Shown piece by piece: positions 37,446 through 41,161 of a stretch of DNA of 64,000 nt. The DNA lies in assembly GCF_900129295.1 (NCBI RefSeq), contig NZ_FQUU01000003.1, positions 1 to 64,000 on the forward strand, read 5' to 3'. A model generated the notes under the pieces. It made no database searches. It was not told the DNA's origin and was given only the letters and a program-made list of their open reading frames with translations. The first letter of the stretch is position 1. Each line of letters opens with the position of its first letter. This DNA comes from Flavisolibacter ginsengisoli DSM 18119 (GTDB lineage: Bacteria > Bacteroidota > Bacteroidia > Chitinophagales > Chitinophagaceae). The translations under genes and the position numbers were made by a program.

Positions 37446-37473
37446 CGCTGCGAACACAGCGATCGCTGCGGTT
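37446..37473 (+). repeat. 28-bp hairpin repeat, copy 1 (left of the GxxExxY gene)
   Basis: The 28 bases are identical to those at 37932-37959. In the second copy, which has the fuller left arm, the unit folds as a hairpin with about 11-bp arms (AACCGCTGCGA / TCGCTGCGGTT, one T-T mismatch) around ACACAGCGA. This copy lies 27 bp before the GxxExxY start. Confidence 0.85.
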
Positions 37474-37499: not shown

Positions 37500-37877
37500 A
37501 TGAATGAAAACGATTTAGGAACCCTTGTTCTAGATGCGGCTTTTGAAGTGCATAAAACTTTGGGCCCGGGATTATTGGAAAATGCTTATGAACATTGCCT
37601 GGCATTTGAACTGCTTCAAAAAGAGTTAAATATTAAAACCCAATGTCCATTGCCTTTAGTTTATAAAGATGTAAAGCTCGATTGTGGATATCGTTTAGAT
37701 GTAGTTGTTGAAGATAAAATTGTTGTTGAAGTAAAAGCAGTTGAAGCATTAAACGATATACACCTTGCCCAGATGTTGACGTATTTAAAGTTAACAGGCT
37801 GTAAACTTAGATACCTGCTAAACTTTAATGTGCTTCTTTTCAAATCAGGGATCAGAAGAGTTGTCAATAACTTATAA
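37500..37877 (+). CDS. GxxExxY protein
   Basis: The 125-residue protein contains the naming motif GLLENAY (residues 24-30) after VLDAAFEVHKTLGPG. The later CGYRLDVVVEDKIVVEVKAV segment resembles a PD-(D/E)xK nuclease-like core (D, then E-x-K). Proteins of this family occur as isolated genes inside glycan loci and, with four-helix-bundle proteins, inside intervening sequences of 23S rRNA genes; their function is not established. Here the gene sits between two sugar genes and is bracketed by hairpin repeats, which suggests an inserted cassette. No Shine-Dalgarno is evident. Confidence 0.88.
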   Translation: MNENDLGTLVLDAAFEVHKTLGPGLLENAYEHCLAFELLQKELNIKTQCPLPLVYKDVKLDCGYRLDVVVEDKIVVEVKAVEALNDIHLAQMLTYLKLTGCKLRYLLNFNVLLFKSGIRRVVNNL

Positions 37878-37931: not shown

Positions 37932-37959
37932 CGCTGCGAACACAGCGATCGCTGCGGTT
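37932..37959 (+). repeat. 28-bp hairpin repeat, copy 2 (right of the GxxExxY gene)
   Basis: It is identical to 37446-37473 and preceded by AAAAAAAACC, so the full hairpin with 11-bp arms forms here (37930-37960). It could also act as a terminator for the cassette. Confidence 0.85.
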
Positions 37960-38587: not shown

Positions 38588-38635
38588 AATAGTTAGCAGG
38601 AGCCTGCTATCACTTAAAATTTTGTGCCTTTTAAA

Positions 38636-39709
38636 ATGAACAACGAGCAAACGATTATTATTACTGGTGGGGCTGGCTTTATCGGCTCACACGTGGTTCG
38701 GTTATTTGTAAAAAAATATCCTAATTATAAGATCATCAACCTTGATGCGCTGACTTATGCGGGGAACCTGGAGAACTTAAAAGATATTGAGGGTGCCACA
38801 AATTATGTTTTTGAAAAGGTTAATATCCTGGATGTTGCAGAGCTGGATCGCGTGTTTGAAACATACCATCCTGATGGAGTCATTCACCTGGCAGCAGAAT
38901 CACATGTGGACCGATCAATAGTATCACCACTTGACTTTGTATATACAAACGTTGTAGGCACTGTCAACCTTTTAAATGCTGCGAAAAAGCATTGGTTTGA
39001 TACTGACCCTACGCTAAACGCTAAACGTTTCTACCACGTATCCACTGACGAAGTTTATGGCGCCCTGGGAGATACGGGTTTTTTTACCGAAGAAACAGCT
39101 TATGATCCTCATTCTCCCTATTCAGCTTCAAAAGCTTCTTCCGATCATTTTGTACGTGCCTACCACGATACTTATGGTCTTCCGGTAGTGCTCACCAATT
39201 GTTCCAACAATTATGGTCCCAACCACTTCCCGGAAAAGTTAATTCCGTTAATGATCAATAATGTCATTCATAAAAAGCCGCTTCCGGTTTATGGTGATGG
39301 TTTATATACCCGTGACTGGCTTTTTGTGAAGGACCATGCGACCGCTATTGATGCAGTATATCATAAGGGAGCCAATGGCGAAACGTACAATATTGGGGGA
39401 TTTAATGAATGGAAGAATATTGATTTAGTAAAGTTGCTTTGCAAGCTTGCGGATGAAAAGTTGGGAAGAGAAGATGGAGAAAGTGAACAACTGATCACCT
39501 ATGTAAAGGATCGTCCGGGACACGATAGACGCTATGCTATTGATGCTACAAAGATCAATAAAGAGTTGGGCTGGAAACCCAGTGTGACATTTGAAGAAGG
39601 GTTATCCCAGACAATTGATTGGTATTTGCAAAATACCGATTGGTTGAATCATGTGACAAGCGGGGCTTACCAAAATTATTACGCTGAGCAATATGCTGAG
39701 AAAAGTTGA
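38636..39709 (+). CDS. rfbB: dTDP-glucose 4,6-dehydratase
   Basis: Starting at the ATG at 38636 the product has 357 residues. GGAGFIGSHVVR, the segment LAAESHVDRSI (near 85), the DEVYG motif and catalytic YSASKASSDH are all present, together with NCSNNYGPNHFPEKLIP, which is characteristic of RfbB. The enzyme converts dTDP-glucose to dTDP-4-keto-6-deoxyglucose. Its stop codon lies inside the left inverted repeat of the four-helix-bundle cassette. RfbC and RfbD are not in the window, so the product may feed a sugar other than rhamnose, or those genes lie elsewhere. Confidence 0.95.
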   Translation: MNNEQTIIITGGAGFIGSHVVRLFVKKYPNYKIINLDALTYAGNLENLKDIEGATNYVFEKVNILDVAELDRVFETYHPDGVIHLAAESHVDRSIVSPLDFVYTNVVGTVNLLNAAKKHWFDTDPTLNAKRFYHVSTDEVYGALGDTGFFTEETAYDPHSPYSASKASSDHFVRAYHDTYGLPVVLTNCSNNYGPNHFPEKLIPLMINNVIHKKPLPVYGDGLYTRDWLFVKDHATAIDAVYHKGANGETYNIGGFNEWKNIDLVKLLCKLADEKLGREDGESEQLITYVKDRPGHDRRYAIDATKINKELGWKPSVTFEEGLSQTIDWYLQNTDWLNHVTSGAYQNYYAEQYAEKS

Positions 39710-40297
39710 ATCGTTGTTATGATGGTTTAATGTAGTTTAATATTGTTGAAAATTGTTTAAAAGTTATTATTTCTGGTAGCACTTTTCAACCATGTTCCAC
39801 CATTTTAATCCTTAAACGTTCTACATGAATACTTATCAATTTTCATTTGAAAAGCTGGAGGTTTGGCAGTTATCCAGAACATTGGCAGTTGATATTTACA
39901 AACGAACCCAGTCATTTCCTCCAGAAGAAAAATATTCTCTTATTTCACAGATAAGAAGATCTGCTCTATCGGTTAGTGCGAATATAACTGAAGGAACAAC
40001 CCGGGCATCGGCTAAAGATCAGGCACATTTTACAACTATTGCTTTTGGCAGTTTGATGGAATTGTTTAACCACTTGGTTATAGCTAATGATTTAGGATAT
40101 ATAAACGAAGATGAAGTGTGTAAGTATAGGGAAAAAATTCAAACTTTATCAGTCAAATTGTCCAACCTGAAGGCATCACAAATTAAAAGGATTGGAGTGT
40201 TATCATTGCTATGGTTAATACTTTTTGCTTCGCACATTCACCAGCCACTTCAACCTTTTAACCATATTCAACCATTTTAAACAACGATTCAACTTTT
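39701..40297 (+). mobile_element. Cassette with 18-bp terminal inverted repeats carrying a four-helix-bundle gene
   Basis: Bases 39701-39718 (AAAAGTTGAATCGTTGTT) and 40280-40297 are perfect inverted copies. Similarity continues imperfectly inward for about 30 more bases on each side (GTTGAA/TTCAACC-rich). The left repeat covers the rfbB stop and the right one ends 3 bp before the rfbA start, so the element fills the rfbB-rfbA junction exactly. It holds only one gene and no recognisable transposase. No target duplication is evident. Confidence 0.65.
39825..40280 (+). CDS. Four-helix-bundle protein (S23/IVP family)
   Basis: The 151-residue protein has the family pattern [52 protein letters not shown] and four predicted helices to about residue 125. 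This family is known from ORFs inside 23S rRNA intervening sequences and as a relative of the Avd accessory protein of diversity-generating retroelements; its own role is unclear. The last 18 or so residues (from [12 protein letters not shown]) are translated from the repeat DNA at the cassette's right end and are probably not conserved. No reverse transcriptase is nearby. Confidence 0.88.
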
Positions 40298-40300
40298 TTC

Positions 40301-41161
40301 ATGAAAGGCATAATCCTAGCCGGGGGGTCCGGTACCCGACTTTATCCAATTACGAAGGCCATCTCTAAACAACTGATGCCTATATACGACAAGCCGATGA
40401 TCTATTACCCGCTTTCCATATTAATGATGGCTGGGATCAGGGAGATACTGATCATCACAACACCTGAAGATAATCCTTCTTTCAAGAGATTGCTGGGTGA
40501 TGGCAGCCAGGTGGGATGTAAGTTTGAATACGCCATTCAGGAAGTGCCTAATGGATTGGCGCAGGCTTTTGTGATCGGTTCATCCTTTATCGGAAATGAT
40601 AAGGTGGCTCTTGTGCTCGGTGATAATATATTTTATGGAACCGGGTTAGGAAGACAACTGCAGGCATTGAATGATATTGAAGGGGGTTATGTATTTGCTT
40701 ACCAGGTTAGCGATCCGGAGCGATATGGGGTAGTGGAATTTGATGATGATCATAAAGTGCTTTCAATTGAAGAAAAGCCTGGAAAACCGAAATCCAACTA
40801 TGCTGTACCAGGGTTATATTTTTATGACAACAATGTTGTTGATATTGCCAAAAATCTCAAGCCATCACCAAGAGGTGAGTATGAGATCACGGATGTAAAT
40901 AAAGTATACCTGGAACGCGGTGAATTAAAGGTAGCAATTTTGGATAGAGGAACGGCCTGGCTGGATACCGGTACATTTGATTCATTAAGTGATGCTTCAG
41001 AGTTTGTTAGAGTCATTGAAAAAAGGCAGGGAACGAAGATTGGGTGTATTGAGGAAGTGGCATATCGAATTGGTTTTATTGATAAAAAACAAATACTGGC
41101 TGCTGCTGACACACTGAGCAAGAGCGGATATGGAATGTATTTAAAAAAAATAGTTCAATAA
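40301..41161 (+). CDS. rfbA: Glucose-1-phosphate thymidylyltransferase
   Basis: The 286-residue protein has the signature [20 protein letters not shown] at the N-terminus, [28 protein letters not shown] near 110, and [20 protein letters not shown]; all are standard for RfbA. It makes dTDP-glucose from dTTP and glucose-1-phosphate, the substrate of the RfbB encoded upstream. The ATG lies 3 bp after the right inverted repeat of the cassette, so its ribosome-binding region is now cassette DNA. Length is typical. Confidence 0.96.

Follow-up and report, generated by a model that had tools for sequence, protein, structure and literature searches.

The window (the whole 64-kb stretch of DNA that was analysed) contains a gene for a four-helix-bundle protein between two genes on the same strand, which were recognised from sequence rather than by family search and are presumably rfbB and rfbA (Table 1). 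The sequence-only reading had described a perfect 18-nt inverted repeat bracketing this gene, and a repeat search recovered the pair in exactly that place, as the sole perfect 18-nt inverted pair no more than 1.2 kb apart in the window. This core lies inside arms of 22 nt (39697–39718 and 40280–40301) that are 95% complementary, and gapped alignment widens them to the arms listed in Table 1, in agreement with the imperfect complementarity reported beyond the core. The gapped arms score 47, a value well above the 29 that was the best of 1000 shuffles preserving dinucleotides, and among the 57 genes called in the window only the PF05635 gene has a flank score of at least 28.

Table 1. Features of the unit between rfbB and rfbA and its two neighbours (window positions).
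Feature	Coordinates	Strand	Remarks
rfbB-like host gene, upstream	38624–39709	+	Frame opens at 38624; likely start is an ATG slightly inside
Left arm	39697–39740	+	Perfect 18-nt core 39701–39718; holds rfbB stop codon 39707–39709; repeat search and gapped alignment
Degenerate tandem array, in and after left arm	39722–39765	+	Units of about 10 nt, GTTTAA/GTTGAA; sole such array in the window at lags 5–11
Extra right-arm copy upstream of gene	39781–39808	+	86% identical to 40253–40280
Four-helix-bundle gene, 151 aa	39825–40280	+	PF05635 23S_rRNA_IVP / TIGR02436 by profile; predicted fold matches 2GSC and 2RLD, more weakly Avd 4DWL
Right arm	40257–40301	+	Perfect 18-nt core 40280–40297; encodes the last eight codons of the gene
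rfbA-like host gene, downstream	40301–41161	+	Open reading frame

The borders run as had been proposed: the rfbB stop codon lies within the left core, and the right core stops 3 nt short of the rfbA ATG. The helix-bundle gene is the only gene between the arms; its C-terminal codons are arm DNA, and the final base of its own stop codon (40278–40280) is the first base of the right core. Insertion exactly between rfbB and rfbA holds in that the gene with its arms occupies this junction, but the unit overlaps the end of rfbB and is not strictly intergenic, since rfbB ends in QYAEKS in this genome and in QYAE in one congener (locus L011). The extra right-arm copy lies just 5' of the gene. This inner, reversed copy may be compared with locus L110, where very long heptamer arrays (TCGTGAA) in both orientations lie to either side of the gene and give the impression of a hairpin at each flank.

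The window protein is a member of the PF05635/S23 four-helix-bundle family, with profile matches of 118.7 bits to PF05635 (curated cut-off 33.8) and 107.4 to TIGR02436 (cut-off 24); the PF05635 domain ends at residue 113–117 of 151. The protein matches 2gsc with an E value of 2.5e-19, and its structure model (pLDDT 90.7) has the fold of 2GSC and 2RLD, with a weaker likeness to Avd (4DWL and 8UB7 among the matches). Each solved structure entry of the family contains five chains, and these proteins are presumably pentamers. PF05635 proteins are under purifying selection, with a median pN/pS of 0.22 over 111 pairs of 70–97% identity in which pS is near saturation. Their genes are frequent in Chitinophagaceae, structurally solved and functionally unexplained.

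As DNA, the 597-bp unit is present in a single copy in its own genome; the further copies anticipated from the window do exist, but as members of the protein family, with eight PF05635 matches in that genome, seven of them above the cut-off. Several of these other genes also have inverted flanks, each with a different sequence. PF05635 was found in 28 of 40 Chitinophagaceae genomes, with up to 16 matches per genome, and 137 loci were taken as the stronger, fuller ones among the matches listed; removal of one duplicate and four short-flanked loci left 132. Each upstream flank was compared with the reverse complement of the downstream flank, and the 99th percentile of cross-locus flank pairs was used as the threshold. 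Inverted arms were detected at 91 of the 132 loci and 41 fell below the threshold, compared with 13/132 that passed the same test in a direct-repeat control. Because these 91 loci exceed cross-locus pairing, the arms match within a locus but seldom between loci. A terminal inverted repeat does recur at other helix-bundle loci, but no single repeat is common to all copies. The arms, as a rule built from 7-nt units, are peculiar to a locus or to a protein subfamily. The loci differ in this respect from classical IS elements and MITEs, which have one terminal repeat common to all copies; here, flanks rarely align across loci, and unrelated proteins have no arms in common. An Rfam scan of ten other helix-bundle loci gave no match. 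With its own inverted arms around a PF05635 gene, the window unit belongs to the same class. These results support the reading of the unit as a cassette and make it wider than first proposed.

Across the 91 armed loci, identity was 0.62 at lag 7, 0.60 at lag 14 and 0.55 at lag 21, compared with 0.31 after shuffling, and lags 6 and 9 were at background. A clear period was present at 76 loci (7 nt at 62, 8 nt at 11, 9 nt at 2 and 12 nt at 1), as against about 7 such loci from shuffled arms. The window arms have a 10-nt period only, with neither the 7- nor the 8-nt period of the class; the window locus is an outlier among the family loci, and this copy is atypical within its class. Stop codons in every frame were considered as a cause of the 7-nt period and rejected, as they occurred in the first 21 nt of 15/88 left arms, compared with 12.6 expected when positions within the heptamer were permuted. 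Stops in all three frames are mostly a by-product of the period.

A scan for relatives covered the best 80 of 583 confirmed ones, and eight of 16 plasmid records were read. Among the 87 named loci, 23 passed a strict threshold of 48, a value raised by clades with common arms: 14/63 Bacteroidota-like loci, 6/8 from cyanobacterial plasmids and 3/16 others, the last being metagenome bins named Phycisphaerae, Acidobacteriales and Bryobacterales. The period was 7 in 20 of the 23, and lag-7 arms were found at 6/8 cyanobacterial plasmid copies. In two cyanobacteria, on plasmids of Pseudanabaena and Anabaena (L323 and L328), a helix-bundle gene lies between cas6 and cas4 of CRISPR operons; because of its heptamer arms, it is probably a cassette and not a CRISPR component.

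The armed loci are strongly oriented. Counting long open frames as neighbours, 76 of the 91 lie in sense between two same-strand genes, 4 are antisense and 11 are arranged otherwise; in the named set at a score of at least 30, 54/63 are sense and three antisense, two of these three in cyanobacterial plasmids. In 74 of 83 cases, no more than 23 nt separate the outer edge of the left arm from the stop codon of the upstream gene; in 45, the arm runs into that stop or past it. Placement by the stop codon and the sense bias may reflect selection for harmless, expressed insertions. A bias of 76:4 nevertheless exceeds expectation for a DNA element that does not need expression and counts against the explanation preferred below, tempered by the 2/8 cyanobacterial plasmid copies that are antisense.

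Four operon junctions were compared across genomes of the window's genus; the host-gene names nuoF, nuoG, sppA, amylase, arginase and nucleotidyltransferase are likewise presumed from sequence. At rfbB–rfbA, where 11 of the 15 rfbA loci of the genus were readable (own included), the helix-bundle gene is present in the window's genome only. Of the other loci, one contains a broken GxxExxY gene, another has rfbC, and a third, that of G004, has a spacer that lacks a gene but shows 8-nt periodicity; the remainder have short or overlapping junctions or other spacers. The sequence-only reading had named a pattern that would speak against mobility, namely the same gene and flanks at this junction in all relatives, no other copies and no arms elsewhere; instead, 10/10 other readable loci are free of the gene, the family has many copies, and arms are common at them. 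At nuoF–nuoG (16/17 orthologous loci read), the gene was found in three (one a remnant), gene-less heptamer spacers in three, GxxExxY in two, a nucleotidyltransferase-like gene in two, another gene in one and clean spacers in five. At sppA–ABC (11/17 read), two loci have the gene, three have gene-less heptamer spacers and six have neither. The amylase–arginase junction (12 read of 13, from 20 loci) has the gene in one locus and heptamer periodicity in five others, with inverted repeats beyond shuffles in only three of these five periodic gene-less cases. Gene-bearing, gene-less and clean states thus coexist at the same junctions within a genus.

Comparison of related copies at different sites indicated where the unit ends. 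Loci L116 and L124, both in G004 but 1.3 Mb apart with unrelated neighbours, share DNA similarity that, at either end of the unit, breaks off no more than 9 nt from the arm edge. This is an old pair (dS about 1.9), with a weak arm at L124 (score 25), and its age suggests that it does not speak for present-day activity. More generally, 109 pairs were assembled in which the proteins are at least 60% identical and no flank proteins are homologous, and 73 of them have arms in both members. At 30/146 left and 35/146 right edges, the end of the similarity coincides with the arm edge to within 25 nt; at the others it falls inside the unit, and the similarity never extends more than 25 nt past the arm edge; distant non-homology is partly by construction, and the pairs share loci. 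Absence of homologous flank proteins was itself a selection criterion for these pairs, which leaves the stop at the arm edge as the one informative feature.

The arms also follow the protein. In ten pairs with proteins at least 70% identical and unrelated flanks, the arms are 86% identical (229/266 positions in left arms and 200/233 in right arms), compared with 35% at fourfold sites (63/178); the same lenient alignment gives 68% for arms whose proteins are unrelated. These are ten of 12 eligible pairs, two having been dropped for weak arms, and they represent three groups: Mucilaginibacter, Pseudanabaena with Calothrix (cyanobacteria), and G004 with G043. At non-homologous sites, arm similarity climbs with protein identity and is at background below about 55% identity. 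That arm similarity tracks protein identity and exceeds that of fourfold sites is the ground for linking arms to protein, and suggests that the arms are functional and kept together with their protein well beyond neutral sites. Covariation was given little weight because both loci of each pair were picked for good arms: 139 double changes keep pairing, compared with about 33 expected, and 91 break it (88 pairs), while in 28 non-overlapping pairs 37 keep and 27 break pairing. A mobile unit of gene plus arms with no transposase of its own, as first proposed, is supported by the arm-to-arm homology of related copies, the junction comparison and the arms at most sampled loci. Taken together, the sequence comparisons make it very probable that the unit is mobile from arm to arm and belongs to a wide class.

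Some heptamer arrays have no gene with them. The 400 kb sampled from G004 contain 30 lag-7 and 15 lag-8 arrays, with no more than two at every other lag from 5 to 12. Across the family, 74 lag-7 arrays in 864 kb of twelve gene-positive genomes compare with 1 in 339 kb of nine gene-free genomes (nine of the twelve in the family sample), and the lag 7+8 densities differ with a Mann–Whitney p of 0.001, uncorrected for phylogeny; no lag-7 array was present in the part sampled from G026, nor in the window, which represented its own genome, although both genomes are gene-positive. G002, the sole genome of its genus without PF05635, has eight lag-7/8 arrays in 400 kb, whereas six congeners together have 89 in 800 kb; the binomial p is 8e-9, for arrays that are not independent, a single gene-free genome in the genus and G004 in both the family and the genus comparisons. 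An inverted partner accompanies 30/89 arrays in the congeners and 1/8 in G002; G017 has one at 0/12 arrays despite its 16 PF05635 matches. No recognisable helix-bundle gene lies within 600 nt of the counted arrays in the sampled stretches. When the 45 gene-less arrays of G004 were matched to arms, nine resident ones (score at least 25) gave a mean of 22.1, compared with 17.7 for equal draws of foreign arms; only 7/1000 draws were as high, with base composition uncontrolled. This suggests that gene-less arrays resemble the arms of resident gene-bearing copies. G002 additionally has 12 arrays with an 11-nt period in 400 kb, and the six other congeners have 0 to 4 each.

We propose that the unit is a transposase-less DNA hairpin element whose helix-bundle protein recognises its own arms and whose mover is supplied in trans, a reading to which we give a probability of roughly 0.6 on the sequence comparisons above. 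On this view, small mobile DNA elements of this kind would be widespread, and the 597-bp unit would be one of them. Recognition of the arms by the protein is, taken by itself, somewhat favoured: the protein would bind its cognate arms when these form a hairpin or cruciform in DNA and, once bound, could help the arms to be copied or moved. Because we know of no catalytic site in the PF05635 family, cutting and joining are proposed to be carried out by an enzyme in trans, for which a Y1/HUH transposase, host recombination and template switching are candidates. Loss of the gene would leave empty hairpins that the resident protein could still use, and an insertion overlapping a stop codon would do little harm and allow the host promoter to express the gene. 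MITEs and REPINs offer a precedent, as gene-less hairpins acted on by their partner proteins.

The unit could alternatively be an RNA element, that is, an mRNA intervening sequence whose stem is cut by RNase III. Its spread would then depend on reverse splicing or on reverse transcription, and the Avd-like protein would be the partner of a reverse transcriptase. The plan of the 23S rRNA intervening sequence, with a terminal stem, an S23 ORF in the loop and heptamers (PMC4990558), is a point in its favour, as are the sense bias, the Avd-like fold and the folding of the window transcript, which is better than all 20 shuffles (z −4.0). We nevertheless regard it as unlikely. The 122-nt gene-less rfbB–rfbA spacer of G004 folds as RNA no better than shuffles (z 0.15), contrary to expectation. 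Arm mismatches at 154 loci comprise 156 A-C, which are wobble pairs on the other strand only, and 165 G-U, and single-side arm changes in locus pairs are 125 vs 116. RVT_1, the sole reverse transcriptase family searched, had no match at E 0.001 in 7/12 gene-positive genomes, including two with 14 and 16 PF05635 matches, and the match in the window's own genome (28.4 bits) is below the cut-off of 29.6. Because G-U pairs are not in excess on the sense strand and RVT_1 is missing in these genomes, the RNA intermediate entertained in the sequence-only reading is disfavoured, and the comparisons point to DNA as the likely route.

Other explanations place the cause outside the helix-bundle protein. 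If the arrays were primary, slippage of the polymerase together with template switching would expand 7-nt arrays where genes of an operon meet, with the gene as a passenger that tolerates such sites. This would account for gene-less arrays outnumbering genes (45 compared with one in the same 400 kb of G004), for the 59/89 congener arrays that have no inverted partner, and for heptamer arrays published with no mention of a helix-bundle gene in the relevant sections of PMC4679880 and PMC4476775. It fits poorly with the rarity of arrays in gene-free genomes and with arms that travel with the gene between sites and follow the protein subfamily, and we consider it improbable. A Y1/HUH transposase of the REP/RAYT kind might instead move the hairpins with the helix-bundle gene as cargo only; such enzymes act on DNA hairpins, and PF01797 (Y1 transposase) is found in 12/12 gene-positive genomes (41 matches) and in 6/9 gene-free genomes (7 matches), counts that include fragments and are uncorrected for phylogeny. 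Cargo, however, would not need arms that follow it, and this scenario appears more doubtful still. The gene might also be a normal member of its operon, passed on vertically, with a hairpin resembling a terminator or attenuator; purifying selection on the gene is consistent with this, as are the many named loci that are vertically inherited, with homologous flanks. Such a gene would not be expected at just one of 11 readable rfbB–rfbA loci and three of 16 nuoF–nuoG loci, or with unrelated neighbours around related copies; at the loci examined, the junction comparison already contradicts this account, which is very improbable.

Among known systems, the cassettes resemble pairs of REPIN and RAYT or of MITE and transposon in having abundant gene-less hairpins that look like the termini of a more complete, protein-coding form found in the same genome. 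They differ in that their protein is a helix bundle and not a transposase, and in that their arms are degenerate tandem heptamers that vary from locus to locus. Cyanobacterial STRR are heptamer repeats as well. Further heptamer units are the TAACTGA repeats of PMC4679880 and the P6b stems of the Nostoc trnL intron, which have 7-nt units on both sides of the stem (PMC4476775); together, these repeats share the 7-nt unit with the cassettes and come from cyanobacteria and Bacteroidota, but the passages concerned in the two papers state no connection to a helix-bundle gene. By analogy, the Nostoc trnL stems and the TAACTGA arrays look like the gene-less form of the cassette.

The 23S rRNA intervening sequence described in PMC4990558 has a 28-bp terminal stem and an S23 ORF that is preceded by two to three heptamers in tandem. 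It shares with the helix-bundle cassettes terminal inverted repeats that form a stem, a sense S23 ORF between them, heptamers, a similar size and the lack of a transposase. It differs in sitting in 23S rRNA, from which it is excised by RNase III in vitro, whereas the cassettes, the window unit among them, lie between protein genes; they occur many to a genome with gene-less arrays beside them, and their arms bear no sign of selection on sense RNA. The authors of PMC4990558 restate older ideas that these units are remnants of transposition or that the ORF serves mobility, and call their role and origin unclear 25 years after discovery. PF05635 is termed Avd-like in a passage of PMC10053308, and the Avd proteins of diversity-generating retroelements have a similar fold, but a resident reverse transcriptase does not regularly accompany the cassettes, as judged by RVT_1. 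A search of the open-licence literature found no published link between PF05635 genes outside rRNA and heptamer arms, which is weak evidence of absence.

We suggest tentatively that PF05635 proteins may confer specificity on a large class of mobile DNA that has no transposase and has gone unrecognised. It would be made of 7-nt-phased hairpins at junctions within operons, and would occur in Bacteroidota, in Cyanobacteria and, judging from single loci in metagenome-assembled genomes, in Planctomycetota and Acidobacteriota, with the 23S rRNA intervening sequences, cyanobacterial heptamer arrays and Nostoc trnL stems as possible members or relics. If the protein does recognise its own arms, both the function of PF05635 and the reason why heptamer repeats occur in these lineages could be tested by simple binding, and a class of mobile DNA with neither a transposase nor a fixed terminal repeat would become cataloguable.

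Small genes of another family, GxxExxY (PF13366), occupy the same junctions and have inverted flanks, 17/33 loci scoring at least 30 compared with 2% of cross-locus flank pairs. Their arms, unlike those of the helix-bundle genes, are not heptameric (0.275 at lag 7, with a maximum of 0.37 at lag 9), and several loci have similar arm sequences. One such gene lies in the same operon of the window (37500–37877), with GC-rich palindromic repeats on both sides (about 37446–37473 and 37932–37959) that resemble each other as direct copies; its relatives are found at rfbB–rfbA in one congener and at nuoF–nuoG in two others. At nuoF–nuoG of further congeners (L332, L338 and L346), ATPase-like and nucleotidyltransferase-like genes are present in different species, and because unlike small genes occupy this junction across species, it has the look of a place that accepts small cassettes in general. 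A different kind of repeat was observed at rfbB–rfbA of G001 (L024), where the 197-nt spacer contains an inverted repeat of the CATTGCGAGC type.
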